NCBI RefSeq assembly: GCF_012952295.1
Contig: NZ_JABBCH010000023.1
Coordinates: 1-46,883, forward strand
Source of the DNA: Crystallibacter degradans
GTDB lineage: Bacteria; Actinomycetota; Actinomycetes; Actinomycetales; Micrococcaceae
Direction of reading: 5' to 3'
Length of the DNA stretch: 46,883 nucleotides
A program made the position numbers and the translations under genes. Positions within the stretch are counted from its first letter, which is position 1. Each line of letters opens with the position of its first letter. Shown piece after piece: positions 5,262 through 35,715 of the stretch. Below the pieces are notes generated by a model. It was given only the letters and a program-made list of their open reading frames with translations, did no database searches and was not told the DNA's origin.

Positions 5262-5290
5262 ATCGGATCCTTTTTTTCCCTCCGAAATCG

Positions 5291-5319: not shown

Positions 5320-5359
5320 TCCCGCGTCGGGCCGCGCCCCGCCTGCTCCGTTGATCTGC

Positions 5360-5389: not shown

Positions 5390-5455
5390 CCTGTGGCGGA
5401 TTGTCCGGTCCGGATTTCGGTTGCAGCGAAAAACAACAAATAGTGGCCCTCGCCC

Positions 5456-5487
5456 TTGACCTTCCAGTGCGGAGGAAGGTGCAGACT
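5456..5487 (+). promoter_or_regulatory. MerR operator and merA promoter
   Basis: TTGACC (5456-5461) is the -35 element and CAGACT (5482-5487) the -10, separated by 20 bases. Inside lies the perfect inverted repeat ACCTTCC-N8-GGAAGGT (5459-5480). A long spacer with a dyad between -35 and -10 is the hallmark of promoters activated by MerR through DNA untwisting. The merA start is 57 bases downstream. Confidence 0.85.
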
Positions 5488-5544
5488 GAGGGCAGCACGC
5501 GCAAGAGAACGCCCCGGGGGTGTTTATTTCTCCATGGAGGACCA

Positions 5545-6978
5545 ATGCCTGAGACACTTGATTTGGCCGTGATCGGTTCCGGAGGCGGTGCCTTCGCCGC
5601 CGCCATCCGTGCCACCAATCTGGGCAAGCGGGTCGTGATGATCGAACGCTCCACGGTGGGCGGGACCTGTGTGAACACCGGGTGTGTTCCCTCCAAAGCC
5701 CTGCTGGCCGCCGCCGAAGCCAGGCATGTCGCTTTGGACGGCGCCGGAAGGTTCCCCGGAATCAGCACTTCGGCCGCACCGGTGGACATGGGTGCACTCG
5801 TTGACGGGAAACGCTCCCTGGTCGAGGGCATGCGCTCGGATAAATACGTGGATCTGGCCGCCGAGTACGGGTGGGACCTGCGTCACGGTATCGCGGCATT
5901 CGCAGGCACCCGGGGGGAACCGCTCCTGGAGATCACCGGGCCTGACGGTGCCCGCGATTCCCTGACCGCCGCACATTATCTGGTCGCGACCGGTTCGGCC
6001 CCGTGGGCACCCCCTGTGCCGGGACTGGATGAGGTTGACTACCTGACCTCGACCACCGCCATGGAACTGGACGAAGTTCCGGAGTCCCTGATCGTGTTCG
6101 GCGGCGGGTACGTGGCCCTGGAACAGGCGCAGCTTTTTGCCCGCCTCGGATCGAAAGTGACCCTGCTGGCCCGCTCCCGGCTGGCGTCGCAGGAGGAACC
6201 GGAAGCATCCCGTGCCCTGATGGGCGTCTTCGCCGACGAGGGCATCCGCGTGGTCCGCCGCGCAGCCGTGACCTCGGTGCGCGCGGATCCCGCCGGGGCA
6301 GAAATCGCTGTGACCGCCACCGTGGCCGGGGGCCAGGAGGAATTCCGCGCCGCGAAGCTGCTGGTGGCCACCGGACGCCGCGCCGTCACTGACGGGTTGA
6401 ACCTGGACGCTGTCGGCGTTAAGATCGGCGACACCGGCCAGATCCTGGTCGAGAACACCCTGGCCAGCTCCAACCCTAGGATCTGGGCAGCGGGTGATGT
6501 GACCGGGCACCGGGAATTCGTTTACGTCGCGTCCGCCCACGGGACCCTGATGGTGGAGAACGCGTTCAACAATGCCAGGCGCCAGGTCGATTACCGGCAC
6601 CTGCCCCGGGTGACGTTCACCAGCCCGGCCCTGGCCGCGGTCGGCATGACCGATAAGGAAGCGAATGAAGCGGGCATCCGGTGTGAATGCCGGGTCCTGC
6701 CCCTGGAGCATGTTCCGCGGGCGCTGGTGAACCGGGACACCCGCGGTTTCATCAAAATCGTCGCCGACAACAGCACCGGCCGCATCGTCGGGATCACCGC
6801 AGTCGGAAAGGAAGCCGGCGACCTGGCCGCGGCCGGGGTGTACATCCTCGAGGCAGGCATGACCGTTGACCAGGTCGCCAACCTCTGGTCCCCGTACCTG
6901 ACCATGGCCGAAGGCATCAAAATCGCCGCGCAGTCCTTCACCACTGACGTTTCCAAACTCTCCTGCTGCGCCTCCTGA
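5545..6978 (+). CDS. merA: Mercuric reductase
   Basis: A 477-residue FAD/NAD(P) disulfide oxidoreductase that reduces Hg(II) to volatile Hg(0) in the cytoplasm. The FAD-binding N-terminus (LAVIGSGGGAFAAAI) is followed by the redox pair in GGTCVNTGCVPSK (C42, C47), the NADPH-binding GGGYVALEQ segment and the FAD motif IWAAGDVTG. The C-terminal vicinal cysteines C474-C475 (SKLSCCAS) deliver Hg(II) and distinguish MerA from lipoamide dehydrogenases. The N-terminal metallochaperone domain of some MerA proteins is absent. The start at 5545 has GGAGG four bases upstream; the frame is open further upstream but without homology. It is first in the merA-merB-flavoprotein operon. Confidence 0.96.
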   Translation: MPETLDLAVIGSGGGAFAAAIRATNLGKRVVMIERSTVGGTCVNTGCVPSKALLAAAEARHVALDGAGRFPGISTSAAPVDMGALVDGKRSLVEGMRSDKYVDLAAEYGWDLRHGIAAFAGTRGEPLLEITGPDGARDSLTAAHYLVATGSAPWAPPVPGLDEVDYLTSTTAMELDEVPESLIVFGGGYVALEQAQLFARLGSKVTLLARSRLASQEEPEASRALMGVFADEGIRVVRRAAVTSVRADPAGAEIAVTATVAGGQEEFRAAKLLVATGRRAVTDGLNLDAVGVKIGDTGQILVENTLASSNPRIWAAGDVTGHREFVYVASAHGTLMVENAFNNARRQVDYRHLPRVTFTSPALAAVGMTDKEANEAGIRCECRVLPLEHVPRALVNRDTRGFIKIVADNSTGRIVGITAVGKEAGDLAAAGVYILEAGMTVDQVANLWSPYLTMAEGIKIAAQSFTTDVSKLSCCAS

Positions 6979-7016
6979 CCGCGCCAGGCCCCAACCCCCA
7001 ACTGGAGGGAATAACA

Positions 7017-7679
7017 ATGACGAACAACGTCAGCCAGGTCACCGACCGCCTCGCCTCCTCCGAAACCGGCATCCAGCCCTGGCTGTGGCTGCCGCTGCTG
7101 AAACTGCTCGCACTGGGCGACCCCGTGGGCCCAGCGGACCTTGCAGCCGCCACGGGCCGTCCCGCCGAGGAAGTCCGGGCCGCCTTTGAGGCCATGACCG
7201 ACGCCGAGTACGACGGATCAGGCCGGATCGTCGGCCTGGGACTGACCCAGCGCCCCACCCGGCACCGCTTTGAAGTGGACGGTGAACAGCTGTACACCTG
7301 GTGCGCGCTGGACACCCTGATCTTCCCCGCCCTTCTGGGCACCTCCGCACGGATCGAATCCGCCTATGACTCCGCCAGCACCCCCGTGCGCATTCATGCC
7401 GGCAGCTCCGGCGTCACCAATATCGAGCCGGCCACAGCGGTGGTCTCCCTGATCAATCCGGAAGACATCAGTTCTGTCCGCTCCTCCTTCTGCAACCAGG
7501 TCCACTTCTTCGCCTCACCCGAAGAAGCCGGACCCTGGCTCAAGGACCACCCGGAGGGCACCGTGATCCCCGTGGAGGAGGCGTACCGGATCGCTTCGGA
7601 CATGGCCGGAAAAATGCTCGCCCGGGGCGAAGCGCAGATCACCGGACCGGAGGATACGGCGCCCAGCTGCAGCAGCTGA
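7017..7679 (+). CDS. merB: Organomercurial lyase
   Basis: A 220-residue protein that cleaves the carbon-mercury bond of organomercurials, passing Hg(II) to MerA. The catalytic residues fall at the family's standard numbering: C96 and D99 in YTWCALDT, and C159 in SSFCNQVHF. The N-terminal helical region is followed by the MerB fold, and the tail ends with a Ser/Cys motif (PSCSS). The ATG lies 38 bases after the merA stop with GGAGGG just before it. Together with merA this gives broad-spectrum mercury resistance. No merT or merP uptake gene is visible nearby. Confidence 0.96.
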   Translation: MTNNVSQVTDRLASSETGIQPWLWLPLLKLLALGDPVGPADLAAATGRPAEEVRAAFEAMTDAEYDGSGRIVGLGLTQRPTRHRFEVDGEQLYTWCALDTLIFPALLGTSARIESAYDSASTPVRIHAGSSGVTNIEPATAVVSLINPEDISSVRSSFCNQVHFFASPEEAGPWLKDHPEGTVIPVEEAYRIASDMAGKMLARGEAQITGPEDTAPSCSS

Positions 7680-7769
7680 CCAGGCGCGGGCCCCGGGCAC
7701 CACCGTGCGCGCCGAAAGACGTTTGACGAGAAGAACCCGAAAGATCAAGCCAATCTGAAGGAGATCAGC

Positions 7770-9137
7770 GTGAACGAACATTTCGATGTAGCCGTACTTG
7801 GCATGGGGCCCGGCGGGGAGGTCGCCGCGGACCGCCTCCTGAAAGTAGGGGAAAAAGTAGTCATCTTCGAACGGGAACTGATCGGCGGGGAATGCGCCTA
7901 CTGGGCCTGCATCCCGTCCAAAACAGTCCTGCGCCCGCCGGAAGCACGCATGGAGGTACAAAAAGCCGCCGGCGTCAGCGCCGCCGAACTGGACTGGGAC
8001 GAAACAGCCAAATACCGGGACTACATGATCCGGAACCTGGACGACAAAGCCCAGGTGGACGGTTACGCGAAGCAGGGCGCCGAGGTGGTCAAGGAAGAGG
8101 CACGGCTCACCGGGCCGGGCCGGATACGCGCCGGAGACCGCGACATCACCGCCGAACGCCTCATCATCGCCACCGGGTCCGAGGCGGTAATACCGCCCCT
8201 GGAAGGCATCGAAGAGATCACAACATGGACCAACCGGGAGACCTACACCGCCTCAACCCTCCCCAAACGGGCAGTGATCATCGGCGGCAGCGCGGTCGGG
8301 GTTGAAACAGCCACGTTCCTGGCACGCTTCGGCGTCAAAGTCACCCTGGTCCACCGCGGACAGCGGCTGATAAACCGGGAAGATCCCCGCGTCGGGGAAC
8401 TGGCCCACACATACCTTACGGAAACCGGCGTCGACGTCCACCTCGGAGCCTCCGCTGCCCGCGCCAGGCGCGAGGGCGCCGACAGCATCATTGAACTTCA
8501 CAAAGCAGACGCCGAAGACGGCGGAGAAGTCGCAGCCGACGTCGTAATCTTCGGCACCGGCCGAAAGCCACGCACCAAAGGCCTGGGCTTTGAACATTCC
8601 GGGATCGGCTTGGGGGACCGCGGCGAAGTGCTGGTCGATGAGCACTGCCGCGCCGCGGAGAACACCTGGGCCATCGGGGACGTCACAGGCATCATGCCGT
8701 TCACCCACGTGGCCAAATACCAGGGCAGGATCGCCGCCGACGCCATTCTCGGCCAGCCCCGCGCCGCCACCTATGACGGCATACCGCGAGTGGTGTTCGC
8801 CGACCCCGAAATCGCCGCCGCCGGGCTGACCGCCCGCCAGGCACAAGAACGCGGACTCCGGGTTGCCGCGGCCGAAGTCGATCTTGCCCACGCCATCGCC
8901 CGGCCCTGGACCTACGAGAAAGATCCGCGCGGACACCTGGGCCTGCTGGCCGACGCCGACCGGAAAATCCTCATCGGCGCCTGGGCAGTCGGGCCCATGG
9001 CCGGTGAATGGATCCACCACGCCTCCCTGGCCATCCGGACCCAAATACCCGTCGACACCCTCCTGGACCAGGTCGCACAATTCCCCACCTACCACGAGGC
9101 CTACCACGCGGCACTGGAAAAACTGGACCTCGGCTAG
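7770..9137 (+). CDS. MerA-like FAD/NAD(P) disulfide oxidoreductase
   Basis: A 455-residue class I pyridine nucleotide-disulfide oxidoreductase beginning at GTG 7770 with AAGGAGA upstream. It has the FAD motif VAVLGMGPGG and a redox pair C42/C47 in ECAYWACIPSKT, in place of the usual CVNxGCxPSK. The NAD(P) motif is VIIGGSAVGVE, the second FAD motif TWAIGDVTG, and an FPTYHEAYH C-terminus contributes the family's His-Glu region. It lacks the C-terminal vicinal Cys of MerA, so direct Hg(II) reduction is unlikely. Standing third in the operon, 90 bases after merB, it may regenerate thiols (mycothiol, lipoamide or similar) during mercury stress. That role is inference. Confidence 0.85.
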   Translation: MNEHFDVAVLGMGPGGEVAADRLLKVGEKVVIFERELIGGECAYWACIPSKTVLRPPEARMEVQKAAGVSAAELDWDETAKYRDYMIRNLDDKAQVDGYAKQGAEVVKEEARLTGPGRIRAGDRDITAERLIIATGSEAVIPPLEGIEEITTWTNRETYTASTLPKRAVIIGGSAVGVETATFLARFGVKVTLVHRGQRLINREDPRVGELAHTYLTETGVDVHLGASAARARREGADSIIELHKADAEDGGEVAADVVIFGTGRKPRTKGLGFEHSGIGLGDRGEVLVDEHCRAAENTWAIGDVTGIMPFTHVAKYQGRIAADAILGQPRAATYDGIPRVVFADPEIAAAGLTARQAQERGLRVAAAEVDLAHAIARPWTYEKDPRGHLGLLADADRKILIGAWAVGPMAGEWIHHASLAIRTQIPVDTLLDQVAQFPTYHEAYHAALEKLDLG

Positions 9138-10040: not shown

Positions 10041-10057
10041 TACTATGAGACATAGTA
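10041..10057. promoter_or_regulatory. BlaI/CopY-type operator, site 1 (perfect)
   Basis: TACTATG-AGA-CATAGTA is a perfect 7-3-7 inverted repeat and the best of five related sites. It lies 155 bases upstream of the Asp-box propeller gene. BlaI, MecI and CopY repressors bind dyads of the TACA/TGTA or TACTA/TAGTA type. Confidence 0.8.
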
Positions 10058-10211
10058 GAAGGGCGTCGCACTCTTGGCCGCGCCGACCGGCCGCCTCCTA
10101 CGCACAAGCGGGCTACTGGTTGTAACCACATCACCGAACCCCGCCCGGCTGACTTCACAGCAGCGCGTGCAGCTTCCACCCACCGCCGTATCAACGACTA
10201 AGGATCACATC

Positions 10212-11135
10212 GTGAAAGACACGTCCCGTACGCCCGCAGCACCAGCCGAGAAGCAAAAGAAAGCCAGTGCTGGCCGGCGCCAGTGGGTAGCGGCAGCAGT
10301 AGCCGCTGCTGTTATCGCCGTCGGCGGTGGGATTGGTGTCTTTGCGGCCACCGGCGGGAAAGATGCTGCCACAGAAGCATCAAGGGCTGCAACCAGTCCC
10401 TACGTTGGCGGAGATCTGCACATACTGACCTCGCTCGGGGGGCGGCTTTACGTGGGCGGCCACGACGGCGGGGGTGTTTCCACCGATGGCGGTGTCACCT
10501 GGACACAACTGCCATCACTTAAAGGGACCGATCCGATGGGGGCGGCAGCAACAGAGGAACTAACACTCATCGGTGGCCACCCTGGCCTTTACCGGTCCAC
10601 CGACGGTACGTCCTTTACGAAGGTCACAGGTGAAGGGGCACTCAATGATGTGCATGCCCTTGGCGGCGCGGGTGAAATCTTCTACGCCAGCACGACAGAG
10701 GGTGGGCTACAGGTCAGCGACGACGGCGGGAAGAACTGGACAACCCGTAACACTGAGATCGGTCAGTCTTTTATGGGAGTCATTTTGGTGGACCCAGCCG
10801 ACCCCGAGCGACTGATCGCGACGGATATGGCCAACGGCCTGGTTATCAGTAACGATGGTGGCCGCACGTGGGAAGGCCTGGGCGGACCCGGTGGGCCGAT
10901 GGCCGTCACGTGGGACCCTACCAACACCGCGCGGTTGGTGGTTTCAGGGATGGCCGAAAGCGCCATCAGTAGTGATGGCGGCGAGACCTGGGCCCCTTTG
11001 GCGGCACCTGAGGGCACTACCGCCACCACCTTCTCCCCCGACGGGAAGACGCTCTTCGCCGCCGTCCGCAACGGCACTAACGCCAGTGTTTACGCCAGCA
11101 CCGACGAGGGCCGGTCTTGGACGAGTCTGGTTTAG
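10212..11135 (+). CDS. Membrane-anchored Asp-box propeller protein
   Basis: A 307-residue protein from GTG 10212, with AAGGAT upstream. A basic stretch and one membrane helix (about residues 25-45) anchor a predicted beta-propeller. At least five Asp-box/BNR signatures are visible: STDGGVTW, SDDGGKNW, SNDGGRTW, SSDGGETW and STDEGRSW. Similar actinobacterial proteins are annotated as F510_1955-family glycosylhydrolases, but the boxes are structural and do not prove glycosidase activity. The perfect operator upstream places it in the copper regulon. A metal-binding or envelope-repair role is possible and unproven. Confidence 0.8.
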   Translation: MKDTSRTPAAPAEKQKKASAGRRQWVAAAVAAAVIAVGGGIGVFAATGGKDAATEASRAATSPYVGGDLHILTSLGGRLYVGGHDGGGVSTDGGVTWTQLPSLKGTDPMGAAATEELTLIGGHPGLYRSTDGTSFTKVTGEGALNDVHALGGAGEIFYASTTEGGLQVSDDGGKNWTTRNTEIGQSFMGVILVDPADPERLIATDMANGLVISNDGGRTWEGLGGPGGPMAVTWDPTNTARLVVSGMAESAISSDGGETWAPLAAPEGTTATTFSPDGKTLFAAVRNGTNASVYASTDEGRSWTSLV

Positions 11136-11622
11136 GGCGGCGAAGTTTCACCCGGGCAGGGCACTGCCGCAAACTCGCGCCAGTTCCCCCTGCCATCCCT
11201 GGCGCGCGGCCGGTGCCCTCGCCCCCACTGCCGTAAGCCTTGATGAGTCAGTTCGGAGATGCAGCCCCGTTGGTTAGCGCTCCCGGGCTCTTCTGCTCCG
11301 CAAGCCGCTGCTGGTGTGCCACCGGAGGTGATTGGCGGCGGCGCGGGCCTTATCTCGAACGGCAACGGCAGACTCAAAAAAATTCCGCGCTTGTTACCGC
11401 ATGGCGGTCAATTCGCGGGAGCCCAGCTGTTTGCGGGATGGAGCGTCACGCTATGTTCCGTCGGCCCAGAGACCTTATCCCTGTTGAGCTCCATGTGCTT
11501 ACCGTGCAACTGTTACCGGCAGGCAACAGCGCACCACACCAAATGACCAGCAACACTTATCTCCATGCCGATGCCGACCAATATGACGGGTCCGCTCTAA
11601 GGTCCCGCCAAGTCCAAGGAAC
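11136..11622. other. Intergenic stretch without recognised gene
   Basis: About 490 bases between the propeller gene and operator site 2. Open frames on both strands lack a credible start or motif. No hairpin stood out. Confidence 0.4.
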
Positions 11623-11639
11623 TACTATGTTTGTTAGTA
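11623..11639. promoter_or_regulatory. BlaI/CopY-type operator, site 2
   Basis: TACTATG-TTT-GTTAGTA: the left arm is perfect and the right arm matches 5 of 7. It sits 140 bases upstream of the copC-copD fusion. Confidence 0.65.
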
Positions 11640-11778
11640 TTGATACTCGGTTCGAGTTGGCATCTCCGACCCCGGCTACGCCAGACTCTTAGCGCCGTAA
11701 GTACTGGAGCCGAGCTTGGAGTGCCTGGAGCTGAAGCTGGCCTCCAGATGCCTGCGCCGACGACTATGGAGAGAACTT

Positions 11779-13824
11779 TTGACGGATCACCAGCAGGTGG
11801 GGCTCCTGCCGCAACCAGCCGGCACCGTATTAGACGCCGGCAGGGGAGGCAGTATTCCCGGAGATTCCTCTTGGCGTTCGCCCCTGGGCTCCTCGGCCCG
11901 CAGCGGCTGGCGGCTGTTGGTCATTGCAGCGCTGGCTGGTATTGCGTTACTGGGCGGGGCCGGTCCGGCTTCTGCCCATGCCAATCTTCTTTTTACCGCT
12001 CCGGCAGCCGGTGCTGCCGTTGCCGACGCCCCGCAGGCCCTGACCCTTCTGTTCGATGAGCCGGTATCTGCCGGCGGCACGGTGGTTGAGGTGTCGGGCG
12101 GCGATGCAGGTATCGCCACGGGCCCGGCAACACTTAGCCATGAAGGCCGGGCCGTGGAAATGCCGATCGACGGTGCAATGGCACCCGGTGTTTATGTGGT
12201 GGAATGGCAGATCACAGCCCGTGACGGGGACGTGATGGGCGGCAGCTACCGTTTCGCTGTGGGTCCGGCCGCAGCTTCCCTAGATCCCAGGCAGTCAACG
12301 CAGACGCGGGGATTCTGGATCACGGCTGGTTTGCGATGGATCGTTTTTGCCGGCCTGGCTCTGAGTCTCGGCGAGCTGGTTCAGGCCCGCATGTTGCGGC
12401 GCGAACCGGGCGCCAGACCGCGCACCTGGATGCTGCCGGTGCTGCTGTCGGGTCTTGCCGCGTCGGCAGGCCTGACTCTGGTGCTGGCAGGCAACGGCTC
12501 CCTTGCCCAAGGTGTCCTCAGCCCGGATCCGGAAGCTTTGTTTTCTTCACGTCCCGGGATTCTGGCGTTGGTCACCGCCGGCGGATTCGCCTTGGCCGCG
12601 GCAGCCGAACTCGTGTCGCGCCGCTGCTGGCTGTGGCCTGCCCTGTTCATGGTGGTCGCGGGCGAGGCCCTGCGGGCGCATCCGCAGCTGGTGAATCCTG
12701 TTCTCGGCATTCCGCTGTCCCTGGTTCATCTGGCCGCCGCGGCGGCATGGGCGGGAACGCTGGTTTACGCCCTGCGTACCGCAGCAGCGCGGCGGCACGC
12801 GCCGCAGGGTGTCCGTACAGTCTTTGCCGCCTATGCGGGCTTGGCAGTGTGGCTCTTTGCCGCCGTCGCCGTGACCGGAACCGGTTCCGCGTTGCTCCTG
12901 GTGCCGCCGGATGAAATCGTCACCACGGATTACGGGCGCGCTCTGGCCATCAAACTTCTCCTTGTCGCCGCCGTCGCCGCACTGGCCTTCCTGGCCCGGC
13001 GGCGGCTTCGCCGCCGGGCAGCGTCTGTAAAGATCATCCGCCCGGCCCGGGCGGAAGCGGTGTCCCTGCTGGTGCTCCTGGGCGTATCGGCGCTGCTGAC
13101 GGTGCTGCCGATGCCGGGGACCAAGGATGCATCGCTGGCTTTTCCGCCGCCGGCCACGGGACCGGCAGTCATCACGGGGGCACTGGCGGGCAATGTGGGC
13201 ATCACGGCCACGGCCAGCGAAGGCCAGCTCGTGGTGCAACTGACAGCACCGCAAACCCCGGACGGCACCGGCGGCAGCGATCAGCAGTACAGCTTGAGCG
13301 GGGCACTGACGGGCCCGTCCGGCAGGACGCAGGAGCTGGACATGCGTGCCTGCGGCGCCGGCTGCTACGTCAGCGCCGCCACCTGGGAAAACGGGTCCAG
13401 CCGGCTGACACTGACCGTCACGGCCGAGGGCTGGACCGGGGGCCGCGCAGCCCTCACTGTCGCCTGGCCCGCATCGCCTGCCCCGGAACTTCTCACGGAA
13501 GTCGTTTCAACGATGGCTCAAATCCCGGAATTCACGGTGCACGAAGTCGTGACCAGCGACACCACCCAAGGCCTGGGGACACCCACATCCCTGCAAATTG
13601 AAGGCCCTGGGTTCCTTGAGCGGGCTCTTTACGGGTCAGCGACGGCACCGTGGACCAACCGGTTGCCTGACGAGGATGGCCACCGGCGCCTCGCACTGGC
13701 CTACCCCGCCGAAAACGCCTATTTCGAACTGACGCTGGCCGATGACGGCAGGATCCTTTCCGAAACTCTCGCCGCTCCGCACCACCAGGTCACCCGCACC
13801 TACATCTACACCGGACATGAGTAG
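11779..13824 (+). CDS. copCD: CopC-CopD fusion copper resistance protein
   Basis: A 681-residue protein. I prefer TTG 11779, preceded by GGAGAG; an upstream TTG at 11716 has no such site. After a long N-terminal arm and signal helix, cleavage after ASA would expose the CopC domain starting HANLLF, whose N-terminal His is the Cu(II) ligand. It runs through GDVMGGSYRFAVG. About eight membrane helices of the CopD domain follow, then an extracytoplasmic C-terminal domain of roughly 200 residues with two cysteines (RACGAGCY) and a HH pair. CopC binds copper outside the membrane and CopD is linked to its movement across. An operator lies upstream. Confidence 0.88.
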   Translation: MTDHQQVGLLPQPAGTVLDAGRGGSIPGDSSWRSPLGSSARSGWRLLVIAALAGIALLGGAGPASAHANLLFTAPAAGAAVADAPQALTLLFDEPVSAGGTVVEVSGGDAGIATGPATLSHEGRAVEMPIDGAMAPGVYVVEWQITARDGDVMGGSYRFAVGPAAASLDPRQSTQTRGFWITAGLRWIVFAGLALSLGELVQARMLRREPGARPRTWMLPVLLSGLAASAGLTLVLAGNGSLAQGVLSPDPEALFSSRPGILALVTAGGFALAAAAELVSRRCWLWPALFMVVAGEALRAHPQLVNPVLGIPLSLVHLAAAAAWAGTLVYALRTAAARRHAPQGVRTVFAAYAGLAVWLFAAVAVTGTGSALLLVPPDEIVTTDYGRALAIKLLLVAAVAALAFLARRRLRRRAASVKIIRPARAEAVSLLVLLGVSALLTVLPMPGTKDASLAFPPPATGPAVITGALAGNVGITATASEGQLVVQLTAPQTPDGTGGSDQQYSLSGALTGPSGRTQELDMRACGAGCYVSAATWENGSSRLTLTVTAEGWTGGRAALTVAWPASPAPELLTEVVSTMAQIPEFTVHEVVTSDTTQGLGTPTSLQIEGPGFLERALYGSATAPWTNRLPDEDGHRRLALAYPAENAYFELTLADDGRILSETLAAPHHQVTRTYIYTGHE

Positions 13825-14087
13825 TGTTGCCGTCCCGCCGGGCGTAGACGTCCTGACGCAATCCTTCCCCCGCGGAACACCGCCATAAGCATGTGACAGG
13901 TGGTGAATTCGTAGATGTAATCCCACCAGTATCTGTGCGCTGCCTGTAGAAGCCCTCGTGCGGAGGGTCTGCAGGCCGTGCAGGCGTCAATGATTACTGC
14001 GGGCAGGAGCAGATGCCCTGCCAGCTGAACCTGAAGATCAGCGAACAAATTCACGTACGGGTTTTCGTGACCGAGTGTCATGCCAGC

Positions 14088-14104
14088 TACTATGTAAGGT
14101 AGGA
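14088..14104. promoter_or_regulatory. BlaI/CopY-type operator, site 3 (autoregulatory)
   Basis: TACTATG-TAA-GGTAGGA has a perfect left arm and a right arm matching 4 of 7. It lies 35 bases before the repressor's own start. A weaker site here would suit autoregulation. Confidence 0.55.
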
Positions 14105-14139
14105 ATAAAAGCCAAGCGCGGGGGTAGAAGGTGGTTGTC

Positions 14140-14514
14140 GTGCGTCAGCTGGGACAGCTGGAAGCTGCGGTGATGGAGCGCGTGTGGTCTGCAGATGCTG
14201 CCGTCTCGGTCCGCGAGGTGCTCGATGCTCTGCAGCAGGAGCGCACTATCGCGTATACAACGGTCATGACGGTGATGGACAACCTCCACACCAAAGGCCT
14301 GCTGGTGCGCCAGAAAGAGGGCCGGGCTTACCGTTATCGGGCTGCCCGGACACGCGAGCAGCACGCTGCCGAGTACATGCAGAACGTGCTGGCCTCTGGC
14401 AGCGACCGCACCGCAACACTCCTGCATTTCCTTGAACAGATGCCCGCCGATGAAGTTGCCGAACTGCGGCGGGCACTGGATCAGGCCGGGAACGGCGAAG
14501 CCGCAACGTCATGA
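14140..14514 (+). CDS. BlaI/MecI/CopY-family repressor
   Basis: A 124-residue protein from GTG 14140, with AGAAGG eight bases upstream; a GTG three codons earlier is also open. Residues 1-75 are the winged helix of the family: RQLGQLEAAVMERVW, then TVMTVMDNLHTKGLLVRQKEGRAYRY. The C-terminal dimerisation part lacks the Cys-X-Cys pairs by which enterococcal CopY senses copper. It therefore probably cannot bind Cu(I) directly and should depend on proteolysis, as BlaI and MecI do. It overlaps the M56 protease gene by ATGA, and five matching operators occur within 10 kb. Confidence 0.9.
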   Translation: MRQLGQLEAAVMERVWSADAAVSVREVLDALQQERTIAYTTVMTVMDNLHTKGLLVRQKEGRAYRYRAARTREQHAAEYMQNVLASGSDRTATLLHFLEQMPADEVAELRRALDQAGNGEAATS

Positions 14515-15542
14515 CTGTCCCGGTTGTCCTGGTCGTTTTTGCCATAGTTGCTTCAGTTTTGGGGCCGCGGCTGCTTCGGCGCGGCGACTGGCTCTCCAGG
14601 TCGCCGCGGATGGGCATTTTCGCCTGGCAGGCGCTGAGCGGTTCCGTGTTGCTCTCGGCACTGCTGGCCGGGGCGGCGCTGGCCGTGCCCGCACTGCCTG
14701 CAACAGCCAGTCTTGCCGAGTTCCTGCAGTCCTGCCTGATGCTCCTGAAGGCACAGTATTCGACTCCGGGCGGAGCCGCGGCAGGAATCACGGGCGCGGT
14801 CCTGGCCGTGACTGTCCTGGCCCGTTACGGCTTCTGTCTGGCCAGATGCGTGGTCTCGGCCAGGAGCAGCAGGCTGGAGCAGCTTCGATCGCTGGCGCTG
14901 GTCGCCCGCCGGAATGACAGGTACGGCGTGCTCGTTGTGGACCACCCGGTCGCAGCCGCGTACTGCCTGCCCGGCCGTGGACGGCAGATTGTCCTGACCA
15001 CGGCGGTACTGGACGCCCTGGACGAGGAGCAGCTCAGCGCAGTACTGGCCCACGAGAGGGCGCACCTGCGCGGCCGGCACGATCTGGTTATGGCCGGCGC
15101 CGAGGCCCTGGAACAGGCATTTCCCCGCGTTCCCGCGTTTCGTGCCGCCCGCCTTGAACTCGCCCGGCTTATTGAGCTGCAGGCCGATGACACCGCTGTG
15201 CGCCGCTACCCGCGACTTACGGTCGCTTCTGCCCTGGTCCGTCTGGCCGAGGGCGGCGCGGCGCCCGCCTCCGCGCTGGGGGCCGGAGGACATAGCGCAC
15301 TCATGCGCGTACGCCGTTTGGCGGCACCGTCAAATCCCCTGGGCCCCGGGCGCAGGGCGGCCATAGCGCTGGCCGCAGCCGCCCTGCTTGCCGGACCGGT
15401 CGTCCTGGCTGCCGTACCCGCTGCCGGCATAGCGCACGATTATTCATGCCCGCCCGCCGCCGTTGCAAGCCATGAAGACATGGCGGCCCTTGGTTGCCTG
15501 CCGGCGGCGCAGGCATGCCCGGAGGGAGCAGGCCGCAGTTAG
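14511..15542 (+). CDS. M56-family membrane metalloprotease (BlaR1-like)
   Basis: A 343-residue protein overlapping the repressor gene by ATGA. Three N-terminal membrane helices (about 3-19, 42-62, 91-112) are followed by a cytoplasmic zinc-protease domain. HERAH at 181-185 gives the HExxH ligands and E222 in ELQAD is the likely third. A fourth helix (about 288-308) is followed by a short outer tail of about 33 residues with C313, H321, M324, C329 and C336. BlaR1 and MecR1 have the same protease core but carry a penicillin-binding sensor at this end. Here the tail is far too short, and its Cys, His and Met residues suggest metal sensing. Cleavage of the paired repressor is inferred. Confidence 0.85.
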   Translation: MTVPVVLVVFAIVASVLGPRLLRRGDWLSRSPRMGIFAWQALSGSVLLSALLAGAALAVPALPATASLAEFLQSCLMLLKAQYSTPGGAAAGITGAVLAVTVLARYGFCLARCVVSARSSRLEQLRSLALVARRNDRYGVLVVDHPVAAAYCLPGRGRQIVLTTAVLDALDEEQLSAVLAHERAHLRGRHDLVMAGAEALEQAFPRVPAFRAARLELARLIELQADDTAVRRYPRLTVASALVRLAEGGAAPASALGAGGHSALMRVRRLAAPSNPLGPGRRAAIALAAAALLAGPVVLAAVPAAGIAHDYSCPPAAVASHEDMAALGCLPAAQACPEGAGRS

Positions 15543-15775
15543 GATCCCGACGGCTTCCAGGCGCTCTCACGTTCGTTGGTAGCCCTGCGCAACTCTGCGA
15601 TTTCCATCCGAAGCAGCTCTTCCTCCGAGAGGCTGTCTGCCGGCCCTTGAGGTTTGGATGCCGCCCCTGAGAGGGCCGCAAGTGAACAGCCGGCCCGCCG
15701 CATGGGCCGCAGGCACAGGAAATACATCGCGGCCACCGATGCCAGCAAAAGCGCGGCGGCAAACACCGTTTCCAT
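15539..15775 (-). CDS. Tiny membrane protein with coiled-coil tail
   Basis: A 78-residue protein with one membrane helix (about 3-22) followed by a charged, probably coiled-coil, cytoplasmic stretch (EEELLRMEIAELRRATNERE). Its ATG at 15775 overlaps the upstream stop by one base (TAATG), so it is translationally coupled to the gene before it. It ends 4 bases inside the convergent protease gene. The function is unknown. It is third in an operon driven from operator site 4. Confidence 0.7.
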   Translation of the reverse strand: METVFAAALLLASVAAMYFLCLRPMRRAGCSLAALSGAASKPQGPADSLSEEELLRMEIAELRRATNERESAWKPSGS

Positions 15776-16011
15776 TAGCGAACTTCGGCCGCATCATAAC
15801 CGGTGACGCCGGGTTCCTGCCGGGACTGCCGGGAACCGCGAAGGCTTTCAACTTCCGCCCGCAACCTGCGGATCTCGTCCGGGGAAGCCGAAGCCTCCGG
15901 GGCGGCACCCTTTGCACCCTTTGCGCCCCTCATCATGAACCACATCATCAGGCCCATCCCCACGGGGCAGGCAAGCAGTGCCAGGGCATAAAATGCTTCA
16001 GCCATCGTCAT
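15775..16011 (-). CDS. Tiny membrane protein with coiled-coil tail
   Basis: A 78-residue protein starting in an ATGA overlap with the Met-rich protein gene. It has one Met-rich membrane helix (about 5-28, ending GMGLMMWFMMR) and a charged helical tail (DEIRRLRAEVESLRG). The layout mirrors that of the next gene, so the two may form a pair or complex. The many Met residues at the membrane face could contact Cu(I), but this is speculation. No named family is certain. Confidence 0.72.
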   Translation of the reverse strand: MTMAEAFYALALLACPVGMGLMMWFMMRGAKGAKGAAPEASASPDEIRRLRAEVESLRGSRQSRQEPGVTGYDAAEVR

Positions 16012-16322
16012 TTCCCTTCGGTACGGTCGGCAGGGGTCCCGGCCTGGCCGGTTTCGGCCATCATCTGTTCGTGCATCCGGGCCATGCCCGGATTCTCGCC
16101 CATCATCTGTTCGTGCATGCGCGCCATGCCGGGGTTCTCCCCCACCATCAGTTCATGCATCCGTGCCATGCCGGCCCCGTTCATTTCGGATACGTCCGGG
16201 GTCATTTCGGATACGTCCGGGGCTGGAGGCGGAGCGGTATCGGCCGCCGGTACGGAGACGGCGGTTCCCGCGGCGAGTGCCACGGCTGTTGCGGCAAGTC
16301 CTGCGAAAGTTGCAGAAATCAT
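16008..16322 (-). CDS. Exported Met/His-repeat protein, probable copper binder
   Basis: A 104-residue protein from ATG 16322, with GGAAAGG upstream. A signal peptide (about residues 1-25, ending VPAA) precedes two PDVSEM repeats and three tandem 14-residue repeats of the form NPGMARMHEQMMGE. Each repeat offers several Met and one His, the ligand set for copper in the oxidising envelope (compare CusF, PcoE and Met-rich CopA motifs). The start codon lies 17 bases from operator site 4. It is first of a three-gene overlapping operon. Copper buffering outside the membrane is inferred from composition and context. Confidence 0.8.
   Translation of the reverse strand: MISATFAGLAATAVALAAGTAVSVPAADTAPPPAPDVSEMTPDVSEMNGAGMARMHELMVGENPGMARMHEQMMGENPGMARMHEQMMAETGQAGTPADRTEGK
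16059..16184 (-). repeat. Three 42-bp tandem repeats
   Basis: Units of 42 bases start at 16059, 16101 and 16143 and encode the Met/His repeats. A second short direct repeat (ATTTCGGATACGTCCGGGG, twice around 16185-16222) encodes the PDVSEM pair. Confidence 0.85.
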
Positions 16323-16338
16323 GATCACCTTTCCAATC

Positions 16339-16355
16339 TACTATGCTTGATAGTA
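16339..16355. promoter_or_regulatory. BlaI/CopY-type operator, site 4
   Basis: TACTATG-CTT-GATAGTA matches the perfect site in 13 of 14 arm bases. It lies between the Met-rich protein operon and the 3' end of the ATPase gene, 17 bases upstream of the Met-rich protein's start. Confidence 0.75.
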
Positions 16356-16422
16356 GTTGAACGGGTGGCGGGCTGCAATGGTTCCCGCCGGCGGGCCTCC
16401 TGCTGCAGCACCCCCGGGAAGG

Positions 16423-19200
16423 TCAGCGGCCGGCTCCGGAAGCCTTCACCTGGGCCGGTGCCGGTACCGTTCCGGCGTCGCCGGGTTCTTCGGCCGGTTC
16501 TGGGGCGAAGCGGTGCAGCCGGCTGGCGTTGACCACGACGCTGATGCTTGAGACGGCCATGGCGGCGGCAGCGATCATGGGTGAGAGCAGGGCTCCGGTG
16601 GCCGGGTAGAGCAGTCCCGCGGCGATCGGGATGGCGGCGGTGTTGTAGCCGAAGGCGAGGAAGAGGTTCTGCCGGATGTTGCGCATGGTGGCCTTGGACA
16701 GGGCTACCGCCGTGACCAAGGCCTGCAGGTCCCCCGACATCAGGGTGATGTCGGCGGCTTCGATGGCAACGTCGGTGCCGGTGCCGATGGCGATGCCGAC
16801 GTCGGCCTGGGCCAGTGCGGGTGCATCGTTGATGCCGTCGCCGACCATGGCCACAAGTTTGCCCTGGTCCTGCAGGGTGCGGATTTCCGCTGCCTTGTGT
16901 TCGGGCAGGACGTCGGCCAGGACCCGGTCAATGCCTACTTGGCCGGCTACGGCCCGGGCGGTGGCGGCGTTGTCCCCGGTGATCATGACGACCTCGACGC
17001 CGAGCCGGTGGAGGGCGGCCACCGCGGCGCGGGAGCTGGGTTTGAGCGTATCGGCGACCGCCACCAGGCCGGCCGCCTGCCCGTCCACGGCAACGTACAT
17101 GGGGGTTTTGCCCTCCTCCGAAAGCCGGGCGGCCTGCTCGCCGAACTGCCCGGTTTCGATGGCCGCGTCGGAGAGCAGGCGGATGTTTCCGATCAGCACC
17201 TCCCGGCCGTCGACGCTGGCCCTCACTCCCTTGCCGGTGACGGAGTCGAAGGCGCTCACGGGTGAGAGCCGCAGCCCTTTTTCCTGCGCGTTGCGGACGA
17301 TGGCCGCGGCCAGCGGGTGTTCGCTGTCTGCTTCTGCCGAAGCGACGAGACGCAGCAGTTCGTCCGGGTCCTGGCCCGCAGCCGGAACCAGATCGGTCAG
17401 GGAGGGCTCGCCCCTGGTGATCGTGCCCGTCTTATCCAGCACCACGGTGTCGGCCTTGTGCGCGGATTCAAGCGCTTCGGCGCTCTTGACCAGGACGCCC
17501 ATGGAGGCGCCCTTGCCGGTGGCAACCATGATCGACAGGGGGGTGGCCAGGCCCAGCGCACACGGGCAGGCGATGATCAGGACGCTCACCGCGGCGACCA
17601 CGGCCAGGGTCAGGGCCGGACCGACGACGAACCAGACAACGAAGGCGATAACGGCTATGAAGACGACTGCGGGCACAAAGTATCCGGCGACGGTATCGAC
17701 GAGGCGCTGGATGGGTGCCTTCGAACTCTGGGCTTCCTGGACGAGCTTGATGATCTGCGCCAGGGCGGTCTCGGCACCGACACGGGTAGCGCGCATGGTG
17801 AATGCCCCGGTCGTGTTCACCGTGGCCCCGGTGACCGGGTCGCCGGCGCCTTTGCTGACCGGGACGCTTTCGCCGGTGATCATTGATTCATCAATGGTTG
17901 ACCGTCCCTCGATGATTTCCCCGTCGACGGGAATCTTCTCCCCCGGGCGTACGCGGATTTTGTCGCCGGCCTGCACTTCATTAGCGTCGACTTCGACTTC
18001 CTGGCCGTCCCTGAGCACCCTGGCGGTGGCCGGGGTCAGCGCGAGGAGCGCGCGGATGGCCTCGCCCGTGCCGGAACGTGCGCGGGCTTCAACCAGACGG
18101 CCGAGCAGGATGACCGTCACGATGAAGCTGACGACCTCGTAGTAGACCTCGCGGACCTCTTCGGGAAAAGCCCCGGGGAAGAAGGTCACTGCCAGGCTGT
18201 ATCCGAACGCGGCCGCGGTTCCCAGGGCGATAAGGCTGTTCATTTCCGCCGAGCGGTTGGCCAGGGCGCGCCAGCCGATGCGGTGGATCGGCCAGCCGAC
18301 GATGAACATCACCGGCAGGGTCAGCACCAGCTGCGTGTACGGGTTTTCCAGGAAATCCGGGACGTACCGGCTTCCGATGAAGTGCGAGACCATGGCCGCG
18401 TAGAGCACCGGGACCGTCAACACGGTTCCGAGCGCCACGCGCCATTTGAGGTCCCGCACCTCCTGGTGCTGGGCCTCCGCTTCGGCTTCCTCGGTCGGTT
18501 CGCTCCCCGGATCCGGGCGCAGGCGGGCGGGGAAGCCGGTAACGTCGGCGACGGCTTTTTCGAGCTCGCCGGTGCTCGAGCGCTCCGGGTCGTACATCAG
18601 CACGGCACGTTCGGCGCCGAAATTGATCTCCGCTGATTCGACGCCGTCGATACGCTGCAGCCGGGATTCGGCTTTCACGGTGTCGATCAGCATGCTGCGC
18701 AGCGCGCCGGGGAGCATGAACTCGGCGCGTTCACGGGGCTGGTTGGCCTCCAGCCGGGGTCCGACGCCGACGGCGCGGGCGGTTTCGGGTTCTTCTTCCC
18801 GGCCGGTATCGGCCGGTGCGCTTCCGGCAGGTTCGGCGACCAGGCGTCCGTGCAGCATGTTCATCCCGCAGGCCCATGGGTACTCTCCGGGCTCCTCAAT
18901 GACCAGATCAACCGTGGTGGTGCCGAACGCCGCCAGCGATGCGCTTTTGCGCAGGTCGGGAAAGACGACCCGGCTGGTGCAGTCGCTGTTGTCCTGCCGG
19001 TTGAACCGCAGCCTGACGGGAGTGCCTGCCGTAACATGCACCAGATCCGGTGTGTATCCGCCGCGCACCGCAATGTCGACTGTCTGGACGCCGCCGGAAA
19101 CCTCGGCGCGCGTCGCTTTCCGGGGCCGGAAAAAGTACCAGGCGAGGAATCCTATCAAAGCGGTACCGGCGGCAATGACGGCTAAATCGAGCGTATCCAT
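16423..19200 (-). CDS. copA: Cu(I) P1B-1 ATPase with N-terminal cupredoxin domain
   Basis: A 925-residue copper exporter from ATG 19200 (GGAGAAG upstream). Residues 4-22 form an extra membrane helix. Residues 38-123 are a cupredoxin-like domain ending CGMNMLHG (C111, H117). Residues 167-226 look like an HMA fold in which the Cys-X-X-Cys loop is replaced by a segment reading MLIDTVKAE, so it should not bind Cu(I) in the usual way. The ATPase core follows: CPC in [17 protein letters not shown] phosphorylation site, SEHPLA and [10 protein letters not shown]. Helix 7 has FGYNTAAIP and helix 8 MAVSS, the P1B-1 Cu(I) signature. Operator site 5 lies about 80 bases upstream. Confidence 0.95.
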
Positions 19201-19282
19201 TTCTGCTTCTCCATCCGCAGTGCGCCCGCCCTGAATCGGCCTGCCGCTGCTGCTGTTGTCCGCGAAAACACCTTTAAGTAGC

Positions 19283-19299
19283 TACTATGTAGATTAGTA
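19283..19299. promoter_or_regulatory. BlaI/CopY-type operator, site 5 (divergent)
   Basis: TACTATG-TAG-ATTAGTA has a right arm matching 5 of 7 and overlaps a second palindrome, AGTAGCTACT (19278-19287). It lies between the divergent ATPase and lgt genes and could control both. Confidence 0.7.
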
Positions 19300-19417: not shown

Positions 19418-20404
19418 ATGAAACCAGCCATTGGCCCTGCCTTACCCGCAGGCATCCCGAGTCCTGACTGGACCGGCTTCACCATCGGCCCCTTGACCGT
19501 ACATGCCTACGCACTGTGCATCCTGACCGGAATTGCCGCCGGCCTATGGCTGACCTCCGCCCGCTGGAAACAGCGCGGAGGACCGAAAGACGCCGTATGG
19601 GACATCGCCGTGTGGGCAATCCCGTTCGGCATCATCGGCGGCCGCCTCTACCATGTCGTTTCATCACCGGACGCCTACTTCGGCCCCAACGGCGACCTGT
19701 CCCTGATCCCGCAGATCTGGCGCGGCGGCCTGGGAATCTGGGGCGCCGTCGCTCTGGGACTGCTCGGGGCATGGATCGGCTGCCGCCGCTCCGGAGTACG
19801 GCTCACCGCCTTCATGGACGCGGCCGCACCCGGGCTCCTGCTCGCCCAGGCCATCGGCCGCTGGGGAAACTGGTTCAACCAGGAGCTGTACGGAGGCCCG
19901 ACAACACTGCCCTGGGGGCTTCAGATCGACCCCGGCAACCCAGACTACCCTGCCGGCCTGCCAGCACGTACCCTCTTCCACCCCACGTTCCTTTATGAAT
20001 CGCTGTGGAACCTGCTCGGGGTCGGCATTCTCCTGTTGCTGGACCGGCGTTTCGGCTTCCGCGGCGGCCGTCTCTTCTGGCTTTACGCCGCCTACTACAC
20101 GCTCGGACGCGTCTGGATAGAGGCAATGCGCATCGACGAGGCCGAACTCGTGCTGGGCCTCCGCCTCAACATATGGACCAGCATCCTTGTCTTCATCTTC
20201 TCCATCGCTGTCTTTATCGCCCTCGGGCGGGAGCAGCGGAAAGCCGGGCCGCCACGGAGCGTATATCTTCCCGGCCATGAACCCGCCGAAGACGGGAACG
20301 CGATGGAACCTGAAGAAAGCCGGAACAAAAACAGTACAAACGACGCTGCCGGCCGCCACAAGACGGATCCGGCCCAAAACCCTGAAAGGAGAAACCCGGA
20401 ATGA
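19418..20404 (+). CDS. lgt: Prolipoprotein diacylglyceryl transferase
   Basis: A 328-residue membrane enzyme that attaches diacylglycerol to the lipobox Cys of prelipoproteins. Key signatures are present: IGRWGNWFNQELYG (family Arg and Asn), HPTFLYESLWN and GRVWIEAMRIDE, within about seven helices. A hydrophilic tail of about 50 residues follows. Chromosomes normally hold the housekeeping copy, so this is likely an accessory one. It diverges from the copper ATPase across operator site 5 and overlaps the SHOCT gene. Its purpose is presumably to process element-encoded lipoproteins such as the zinc-binding protein at 42606. An LspA-like gene lies at 39716. Confidence 0.93.
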   Translation: MKPAIGPALPAGIPSPDWTGFTIGPLTVHAYALCILTGIAAGLWLTSARWKQRGGPKDAVWDIAVWAIPFGIIGGRLYHVVSSPDAYFGPNGDLSLIPQIWRGGLGIWGAVALGLLGAWIGCRRSGVRLTAFMDAAAPGLLLAQAIGRWGNWFNQELYGGPTTLPWGLQIDPGNPDYPAGLPARTLFHPTFLYESLWNLLGVGILLLLDRRFGFRGGRLFWLYAAYYTLGRVWIEAMRIDEAELVLGLRLNIWTSILVFIFSIAVFIALGREQRKAGPPRSVYLPGHEPAEDGNAMEPEESRNKNSTNDAAGRHKTDPAQNPERRNPE

Positions 20405-20643
20405 TGGACTTTATGGGATTCGGCATGGCGTGGATGTGGATCTTCGGCCTTCTGTTGCTCGCGGGCCTGGTCCTGCTCATCGTTTTCCTGGTACGTGCCC
20501 TGTCCGGCGGCCCCAACCGAGGCAGCCGCAGGAACGGCGAGGCTACACATGCCCGGGACATTCTGGAGGAGCGGTATGCGCGAGGGGAGCTAAGCGCAGA
20601 AGAGTACCGGGAGCGCCTGCGCATCCTCAATGAGAATTCATAG
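20401..20643 (+). CDS. SHOCT-domain small membrane protein
   Basis: An 80-residue protein starting in an ATGA overlap with lgt. A Met/Trp-rich N-terminus and one membrane helix (about 10-33) precede a C-terminal SHOCT motif (ARDILEERYARGELSAEEYRERLRIL). SHOCT is a short oligomerisation or binding module found at the ends of many membrane proteins. Such proteins are common beside actinobacterial copper genes. Exact function is unknown. Confidence 0.88.
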   Translation: MMDFMGFGMAWMWIFGLLLLAGLVLLIVFLVRALSGGPNRGSRRNGEATHARDILEERYARGELSAEEYRERLRILNENS

Positions 20644-21224: not shown

Positions 21225-22808
21225 ATGAATGAGCTTGAAAACAACGGCCAGCAAAACGACGACGGCGGTGCTCCCTTGGGCGAGGACGCGCCGGTGAGCC
21301 GCTGGAGCTTTGTGAAATACGGGGCGGCCGCGGGGCTCGGCGCGCTGGCGCTGGCCGGTGCGCAGCCGGCCCACGCGCGAACCACGACGCCGACCGAAGA
21401 GGCCGAGGCGCCCGAGCCCACCGATCTAGCGACGGGTGTTGCGACCGGCGTGGCGACCGAAGAGGCTGAGGACCTGGAGCCGACCGACGAGGCGACTGAT
21501 GAGGCTGAGGACCCGGAGCCCACTGACGAGGCGACCGATGAAGCGGAAGCTCCTGACACAGAGCTGCTGGAATCGGACCGGGAAGTGCTCGATGTCTACA
21601 TCAATGAGGGCTACCTCAAGATGGTGGATGACTCGCTGGTCTACTTCCGCGGGTTCGGCGACCGCCCCACCGAGAAGAACGACGCCAATCCGAGCCTCAC
21701 CATCAAGCCCAAGGTCTTCCTGAAGGACGACACCTGGGTGGACAGCCGGATCTACCCGGTAGGGGCACCGGAACCGCCACGCGGTACGCCGACGCCGCTG
21801 GCGCCGGATCCCCACAACCCTGGCCAATACTACGTCCGCAGGGGCCACTGGGGCAGCTTCATGCCCGAGCGGGTAATCGTTGCGGAAACCGGCAGCAAGA
21901 TCAAACTGCGGGTCCACAACCGGCTGGCCAAGGACCACGAGCTGGCCATCCACAAGGCCGGCGACGACGGCGCAGATGTCAGCACGGGCAAAATCGCTCC
22001 CGGCAAGGTCGGCACGCTGGAACTGAAAGCACCGGAACCCGGGGTCTACATCTACAGCGATCCGGGCAACCAGCCGGTGGAACGCACCCTGGGCCTGTAC
22101 GGTGCGCTGGTGGTCATGGACCCGTCGGACGCCTGGTGCATCTCACCGGACGGCGCCGAGTTCGAACGCCAGTGGGTCTGGCTCTGCCACGCCGTGGATC
22201 CGGTATGGGCAAATATCGAGGCCAAGGGCGGCACCGTGGACCCGGCCAAGCAGAAGGCCGTGCCACGCTACTTCACGCTCAACGGCCGAAGCGGCTACGA
22301 GTCCATGGGCATGACCCGCAACGAGGCGTTGAACCGTGCCTCCGATGAGGAGACCACCATCTCGGGGTACCCGCGGCAGTTCGACGCCCGGGAGTTCGCC
22401 GAGGGCTCGGCCATCGGCTCACTGCGCGGCGGTCAGCTGGTCCGTATCGTCAACTGCGGAATTGTGTTCCACCAGATGCACTTCCACGGCAACCACCTGT
22501 GGACCGTGCGCTGCAACAACGAAGACTGGGGCCGCACCGAAGGCTTCGTAGACGAAAACGGCTACGTCTGCATCCAGCAGTGGGAAGATGTCATCAAGGT
22601 CAGGGGGATGGAAACTAAAGACTCCATCGTCCCGATCAAGCGGCCGCCGGACGCGGTCGACCAGGTCTGGCTCTCCCGGAACGAAGACTGGGCCTACCCC
22701 ATGCACTGCCACTCCGAATCCTCCCAGACCGCTGCCGGCGGTATGTACCCGGGCGGCCTGACCGCCCACTGGATCATCAAAGCACCCGTCGAAGGTGCAT
22801 CATCATGA
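21225..22808 (+). CDS. Multicopper oxidase (laccase-like)
   Basis: A 527-residue exported oxidase, probably converting Cu(I) to Cu(II) outside the cell. The start at 21225 has TTGGAG upstream. The signal region SRWSFVKYG resembles a Tat motif (SRRxFxK) with the second Arg replaced by Trp. Residues about 56-112 are an acidic linker of near-repeats (EPTDEATDEAEDPEP). Copper-site sequences include HELAIH, FHQMHFHGNHLW and MHCHSESSQTAAGGM. The usual type 1 His five residues after the HCH cysteine is Ser here. I believe related oxidases share this, but I cannot confirm it. In the next frame after the stop, HHHDGTAAPAP continues, hinting at a lost C-terminal extension. Confidence 0.92.
   Translation: MNELENNGQQNDDGGAPLGEDAPVSRWSFVKYGAAAGLGALALAGAQPAHARTTTPTEEAEAPEPTDLATGVATGVATEEAEDLEPTDEATDEAEDPEPTDEATDEAEAPDTELLESDREVLDVYINEGYLKMVDDSLVYFRGFGDRPTEKNDANPSLTIKPKVFLKDDTWVDSRIYPVGAPEPPRGTPTPLAPDPHNPGQYYVRRGHWGSFMPERVIVAETGSKIKLRVHNRLAKDHELAIHKAGDDGADVSTGKIAPGKVGTLELKAPEPGVYIYSDPGNQPVERTLGLYGALVVMDPSDAWCISPDGAEFERQWVWLCHAVDPVWANIEAKGGTVDPAKQKAVPRYFTLNGRSGYESMGMTRNEALNRASDEETTISGYPRQFDAREFAEGSAIGSLRGGQLVRIVNCGIVFHQMHFHGNHLWTVRCNNEDWGRTEGFVDENGYVCIQQWEDVIKVRGMETKDSIVPIKRPPDAVDQVWLSRNEDWAYPMHCHSESSQTAAGGMYPGGLTAHWIIKAPVEGASS

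Positions 22809-31488: not shown

Positions 31489-35715
<4,227 letters not shown>

Follow-up and report, generated by a model that had tools for sequence, protein, structure and literature searches.

A candidate copper-responsive BlaI-type repressor and Cys-tailed M56 protease over a dispersed copper regulon in Crystallibacter degradans

We identified a dispersed set of copper genes, predicted to form one regulon under a BlaI/MecI-type repressor, in a contig of the soil bacterium Crystallibacter degradans (NZ_JABBCH010000023.1). The window analysed is the whole of this contig (C41 in our numbering; 46,883 nucleotides). The repressor gene overlaps that of a membrane metalloprotease of the BlaR1/M56 type that has no penicillin sensor and carries a pair of Cys residues, Cys75 and Cys313. 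Copper-triggered proteolytic derepression appears to be the best-supported reading of this cluster, and we consider it fairly probable that the whole model holds, in which the repressor occupies palindromic operators, copper is sensed by the Cys pair of the protease and the repressor is cut. The DNA itself provides the operator-like sites, the gene order, the conservation of both, a repressor free of Cys and the Cys pair. The single dispersed copper regulon envisaged in the original prediction is supported by the sites and by their conserved linkage to copper genes.

Five palindromes in the window match TACTATGN3CATAGTA with at most three mismatches, against 0.14 expected, and 0 of 100 shuffles reached five matches, ruling out chance palindromes as the origin of the set. 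All five had been predicted at these coordinates and carry between zero and three mismatches; no strand is assigned to any of them. The site before the beta-propeller gene, TACTATGAGACATAGTA (10041–10057), is the sole zero-mismatch match in the genome and lies 154 bp upstream of the likely GTG start of that gene at 10212 (the longest propeller frame runs from 10074). The site before the Met-rich operon (16339–16355) has one mismatch, lies 11 bp upstream of the first start of the Met-rich frame and is found at the same position in four other clusters. Two sites have two mismatches each, one before copCD (11623–11639; 76 bp upstream of the frame) and one in the divergent promoter of copA and lgt (19283–19299; 83 bp from copA and 118 bp from lgt); both recur with identical letters in loci L043 and L044. 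The weakest site (14088–14104), with three mismatches to the full pattern and one to the core TACTA-N7-TAGTA, stands 35 bp upstream of the likely GTG start of the repressor gene at 14140, suggesting putative autoregulation. The measured distances, from 11 to 154 bp, bear out the claim that these sites precede the propeller gene, copCD, the repressor gene, the Met-rich operon and copA/lgt. With two mismatches or fewer, the whole genome contains four matching places, every one of them in this contig.

The sites are also found in relatives. Two relatives of the same genus, with M56 proteases 94% identical, have identical letters at the copCD, repressor and copA/lgt sites. At their Met-rich site the letters have changed and the core and place are kept; their propeller site has other letters and lies farther upstream, ahead of an extra small gene. 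More telling evidence comes from four genomes that belong to other genera within the family (M56 55–59% identical); their five clusters are rearranged and hold between one and five perfect cores each. In the window, L043, L045, L046 and L047, the Met-rich gene has a site 11–20 bp upstream (18–20 bp in the other genera); other sites stand upstream of a propeller gene that is followed by lgt (L045, L047) and beside a CopA fragment (L045). Further sites in the clusters of other genera precede SHOCT, thioredoxin-like or rhodanese genes. Imperfect sites precede blaI in L043–L046, L048 and L049, and L047 has a perfect site before blaI that is shared with a divergent gene. We rejected the idea that blaI is invariably preceded by a weaker site: it holds in the window and in the six loci with imperfect sites and fails in the wider set, where a perfect core precedes blaI in, for example, L105, L110, L117, L125, L147 and L148.

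Perfect cores in loci whose protease has a Cys tail fall outside genes in 70 of 91 cases, compared with 21% of random positions (genes called by a simple script, each taken without its first 75 bases). When 394 genomes of the class were scanned blind for TACTATN5ATAGTA, 42 places in 31 genomes matched; the reversed-pattern control matched in 6 genomes, ruling out a chance origin of the exact sites. Among the M56 matches listed, supplemented by two positions (one from a separate search and one from locus L151), one lies within 10 kb of 28 of the 42 sites. Ten of the other 14 are in small genomes of one family that have no M56 among the matches listed. The palindrome TACTATTTCGTATAGTA accounts for eight of the 42 sites and is probably another, unrelated recurring motif: six of its carriers are small genomes with no M56 match (G266, G365, G410, G426, G461 and G475, contributing six of the ten small-genome sites), and the other two, G447 and G469, are among the 28. 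Neither the Streptomyces loci L063 and L064 nor L066 yielded a perfect core. Two loci of family f22, L149 and L150, contain 4 and 10 perfect cores, respectively, and two BlaI/M56 pairs each, of which one in L150 fell below the score for counting; their neighbours include cytochrome oxidase, cytochrome c assembly, thioredoxin-like, and DUF326 or CsoR-type genes.

The repressor (14131–14514, plus strand) belongs to the BlaI/MecI family (Penicillinase_R, Pfam PF03965, 96.3 bits against a cut-off of 22.6), and its best match in the PDB is 2g9w (E 1.3e-21). It contains no Cys at all, and among the repressors of Cys-tail loci 57 of 62 lack Cys and none of the 62 has CxCx4CxC, in agreement with the prediction that a CopY-type Cys motif is missing. 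These findings bear on whether the repressor could itself sense copper, as CopY does. The cluster resembles the Gram-positive cop operons of CopY/CopR in that a related repressor stands over copper export genes, and the CopY/TcrY model TIGR02698 does score 44.8 bits, far below its cut-off of 121.95. CopY is described as having C-terminal CXC motifs and the operator RNYKACANNTGTMRNY (PMC7253601); here there are neither CXC motifs in the repressor nor RNYKACANNTGTMRNY, and neither the cop operator TACANNTGTA nor the extended CopY operator is present in the window. We therefore dropped direct sensing by the repressor, which is very improbable given the lack of both Cys and a CopY operator.

The C-terminal stretch LLHFLEQM of the repressor aligns with the stretch LNFVEKE of MecI. 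BlaR1 is reported to cut BlaI between Asn101 and Phe102 (PMC9834060), and this alignment thus points to a putative cleavage region in the repressor. A loose Phe pattern like the BlaI cut site occurs in 51 of the 62 repressors, two of which (L063 and L113) have it in a different setting. At E 0.001 the genome as a whole yields two matches each for Penicillinase_R and M56, and both of the M56 matches score below the Pfam cut-off; one pair is that described here and the other is on contig C70 (L056; G000:C70:113583-114935). The second pair is of the tailless kind common across the family, with neither a tail Cys nor a loop Cys, and no perfect TACTA-N7-TAGTA core was found in the 14 kb examined around it.

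The protease gene (14511–15542, plus strand) overlaps the repressor gene by four bases (14511–14514), and its product of 343 residues contains HERAH at residue 181, so that the predicted overlap of repressor and HERAH protease is borne out. The protein has the gluzincin signature of BlaR1 and MecR1, HEXXH together with EXXXD (the latter at residue 222), and H181, E182, H185, E222 and D226 are invariant in the 52 rows of our alignment A3. Its score with Peptidase M56 (Pfam PF05569) is 21.7 bits, below the cut-off of 31, and its score with M48 is 51.9 bits. An AlphaFold2 model based on an alignment of 52 sequences has a mean predicted local distance difference test value of 89.9, with a tail of low confidence. 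It places helices at residues 2–24 and 32–58, a loop helix at 68–83, a long helix at 86–131, the protease domain, and the fourth transmembrane helix (TM4) at 279–312. A Foldseek search with the model returned Ste24p first (E 0.008) and BlaR1 8exq second (probability 1.00, E 0.01), with no match at E 0.001.

The pair thus shares with BlaI/BlaR1 and MecI/MecR1 of Staphylococcus aureus the repressor family, HEXXH plus EXXXD, the predicted fold and the helix order. It differs from them in having no beta-lactam sensor domain, in having instead a Cys tail of 31 residues together with a Cys in the loop, and in its copper-gene targets. Pfam detects no penicillin-binding domain at the C-terminus, where just 31 residues follow TM4, as the original prediction had it. 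The idea that this is a beta-lactam-responsive pair merely located in a metal island draws on the identity of the families; it is hardly credible for a protein of 343 residues with so short a C-terminus, and for sites that precede copper genes in several genera. We dropped it for want of the sensor domain.

Arg-rich segments of the protease (4 of 13 residues between TM1 and TM2, and 3 of 18 before TM4) agree with a BlaR1-like Nout–Cout topology, which would put Cys75 and Cys313 outside. BlaR1 is described as having this topology and as sensing through the interplay of extracellular loop 1 (EL1) and the C-terminal sensor (PMC9834060), and L2 of MecR1/BlaR1 is described as an extracellular loop that is bound to the sensor domain (PMC6925264). 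Loop 2 of the present protease (14685–14765, plus strand), with Cys75 (codon 14733–14735), is proposed to be extracytoplasmic and the counterpart of BlaR1 EL1; Cys75 is present in nine of nine members of the close group. The C-terminal tail of 31 residues (15447–15539, plus strand) begins with Cys313 directly after TM4, and this Cys is invariant in 52 rows. A metal-blind repressor, a kept cut site and an outward Cys pair, as predicted here, are the expected look of protease-borne sensing.

To place this protease in its family, we aligned 91 M56 proteases drawn from relatives, a class-wide genome sample, five plasmid records and named genome contigs. Sixty stretches were taken from the M56 matches listed, best first and then as a hand-picked spread, and 57 of these lie on an M56 (L155, L156 and L157 have no M56 match). 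L005 (on the same contig as L044), L012 and M56 matches of 80 bits or less (pieces in L125 and L150) were dropped. A Cys after TM4 is present in 60 of the 91 proteases and absent from 31, the latter including one record counted twice (L006 and L137). As copper markers we took CopC/D, DUF305, P-ATPase, F510/propeller, HMA, multicopper oxidase, and Met-rich or sp78 proteins. Such markers lie within 9 kb of 48 of the 60 proteases with a tail Cys and of 1 of the 31 without (31 of 40 versus 0 of 12 after collapse at 60% identity). Narrow markers alone (CopC/D, P-ATPase and multicopper oxidase) give 31 of 60 versus 0 of 31, and at least one perfect core is found within the same distance of 39 of 60 versus 1 of 31. 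Six loci, L141 and L147–L151, had been chosen for a nearby site; when they are left out, copper genes accompany 46 of 53 versus 1 of 31 proteases, and sites 32 of 53 versus 1 of 31.

A second Cys in the putative extracytoplasmic loop accompanies the tail Cys in 53 of 60 proteases, compared with 3 of 31 tailless ones. In a census of every alignment column for Cys, His and Met, the most prominent positions were C75 (0.88 versus 0.10) and, partly by definition, C313 (0.97 versus 0.00), with weaker differences at C109, M77 and two His columns. A BlaI match is present in every Cys-tail locus, although that in L142 is not in the usual order. The tail Cys of actinobacterial M56 proteases thus goes with copper genes and with the loop Cys, which is the new observation of this study. 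Repressor–protease pairs of this type appear to be common in actinobacteria, as M56 matches at E 1e-25 occur in 218 of 394 genomes of the class, Cys-tail and tailless kinds together.

Several observations weigh against this reading. When three mismatches are allowed, the full pattern matches 14 places in the whole genome and its reversed control 28. Counts at this level are therefore background and provide no counting-based defence of the site at 14088, which we accept for its place before the repressor gene and for the imperfect sites that relatives carry at the equivalent position. Searched with a sequence profile of the close group, the PDB yielded no BlaR1. On the tree, the tail trait changes only three times, so there are few independent cases and Fisher values overstate independence; there are at most three independent pairs for the tail trait and four for the loop Cys. 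Seven of the 60 Cys-tail proteases lack the loop Cys, and the three tailless ones that have it run the other way. Twelve of the 60 have no copper marker within 9 kb, and we found no copper genes in L112, L114, L147, L148 and others, whose neighbours were examined in part. Pfam matches in two of these 12 loci are to DUF326, CsoR-type and HMA proteins (L150) and to SCO1 (L108). Because the markers were recognised by their resemblance to proteins from the window and from a few relatives, copper genes of other kinds are missed.

We propose the following mechanism, in which DNA binding, topology, copper as the ligand, activation and cleavage are all predicted. The BlaI-type repressor would bind TACTA-N7-TAGTA and repress the propeller gene, copCD, its own operon, the Met-rich operon and copA/lgt. 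Excess external copper would bind the M56 protease through Cys75 in the extracytoplasmic loop and Cys313 at the outward-facing end of TM4, perhaps assisted by further Cys, His or Met residues of the tail; the Cys pair would thus stand where BlaR1 carries its beta-lactam sensor. Copper binding may shift the membrane helices and activate the cytoplasmic zinc site, which would cut the repressor in its C-terminal region, close to the conserved (H/N/R)-Phe, so freeing the operators and turning on the copper genes.

The Cys pair might instead be a redox switch that forms a disulfide, or a sensor of envelope damage caused by copper, within the same regulon and with the same protease. Copper can oxidise thiols, the clearest group-specific positions of the census are Cys (C75, C313 and partly C109), and genes for CcdA, thioredoxin-like proteins and SCO1 occur in several of these loci. 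The recurrent neighbours are nonetheless copper-handling genes, and the tails carry varied Cys and His (CHH, CCH, HCH, CP), which in our judgement looks more like metal ligation than a fixed disulfide. We regard a redox or damage sensor as unlikely.

A repressor that controls the sites could also be released by other means, for example by a two-component or CsoR-type sensor elsewhere, with the protease serving for turnover. The signal path proposed above is inferred, and a CsoR-type protein is present in the relative L150. Such a division of labour fits poorly with the overlap of the repressor and protease genes, with the BlaI match in each Cys-tail locus and with the BlaI-like Phe in 51 of 62 repressors (by the loose pattern), and we consider it quite improbable. 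Copper-triggered proteolytic derepression remains our preferred reading for the window. Its extension to the family is more tentative, and we give it slightly less than an even chance: a large class of actinobacterial BlaR1-like proteases would be extracytoplasmic copper sensors, in which a Cys of the TM2–TM3 loop and another where TM4 ends on the outer side would jointly bind copper, in place of the docking of EL1 on the beta-lactam sensor, and would trigger the cutting of a metal-blind BlaI-type repressor.

The closest described system is that of PetR and PetP in the cyanobacterium Synechocystis, where PetP degrades PetR in the presence of copper (PMC7896320, PMC10141476, PMC13421787). PetR represses petE and activates petJ, with a reported regulon of four proteins (PMC7896320, PMC13421787). 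BlaR homologues of other bacteria are described as having unknown roles, and PetRP itself as not serving copper homeostasis (PMC10141476). Compared by description, the pair in the window resembles PetR/PetP of Synechocystis sp. PCC 6803 in its adjoining genes for a BlaI-type regulator and a BlaR1-type membrane protease. It differs from that plastocyanin/cytochrome c6 switch (petE/petJ) in that copper-resistance genes stand behind the sites, in its actinobacterial lineage and in its candidate Cys-pair sensor. The view that the arrangement is distinct therefore stands for targets, lineage and the Cys-pair candidate and does not stand for copper-triggered proteolysis of a BlaI-type regulator, which is already known from cyanobacteria. 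Copper-linked BlaI–M56 pairs like the present one occur on plasmids of Streptomyces, Rhodococcus and Mycolicibacterium, near genes for CopC, DUF305, DUF3105, Lgt or F510_1955 (5 of 20 plasmid records with a match were examined). In the open-licence literature, as represented by titles and the starts of abstracts, we found no description of an actinobacterial copper BlaI/M56 pair, nor of a resistance regulon controlled by one, of its operator or of a candidate Cys-pair sensor.

The genes behind the sites encode several kinds of protein. The first, on the plus strand (10212–11135), is a BNR/sortilin-type beta-propeller with an N-terminal hydrophobic segment (Pfam BNR and Sortilin-Vps10), which resembles the F510_1955 family below the cut-off (NF045728, 113.2 bits against 175). 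It is followed on the same strand by a CopC–CopD fusion of uncertain start (11716–13824; Pfam CopC 61.4 bits, CopD 54.4 bits). The Met-rich operon, on the minus strand, encodes a probably exported Met-rich protein (16008–16328; 14 Met in 106 residues, with MARMHE(L/Q)M three times) and two small proteins identified as open reading frames with no Pfam match. The first of these, sp78a (15775–16011), is probably a membrane protein and has homologues in L043–L047 and L049, with weaker ones in further loci; sp78b (15539–15775), at the end of the operon, has homologues in L043–L045, L047 and L049. A CopA-type P1B ATPase (16423–19200, minus strand; Pfam, and TIGR01511 at 628 bits) has a cupredoxin-like N-terminus and a weak HMA match.

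Divergent from copA, on the plus strand, are the gene for the prolipoprotein diacylglyceryl transferase Lgt (19418–20404; Pfam LGT 224.9 bits) and, overlapping it, that for a small SHOCT-domain protein (20401–20643; SHOCT 28.5 bits) with relatives behind sites in L045 and L047. A multicopper oxidase gene (21225–22808, plus strand; Cu-oxidase_3 22.7 bits), kept behind lgt in L043 and L044, is possibly part of this unit. The lgt gene recurs in copper clusters (19418–20643 of the window, L045, L047, L049 and L063), often with DUF3105 or SHOCT genes, and we speculate that it may provide dedicated lipidation of copper lipoproteins.

Just upstream of the cluster (4872–9137) are genes for a MerR-type regulator, the alkylmercury lyase MerB (7017–7679) and a disulphide oxidoreductase (7770–9137) that we take to be MerA-like; a second, 30% similar frame lies at 5551–6939. 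The contig looks like a metal-resistance island. It also encodes a protein of 1418 residues with AMP-binding and carrier domains (31489–35745).

The annotation of the five plasmid records examined gives just BlaI/MecI/CopY and M56 proteins. For the Cys-tail kind of pair, our analysis adds predictions of copper as the signal, an operator, target genes and two key residues. It offers a candidate answer to how a PetP-like protease senses copper, a question that PMC7896320 leaves to future work. If correct, the model would point to a sensor site in PetP-like proteases and would represent a further route to copper resistance beside direct metal-binding repressors and two-component systems.

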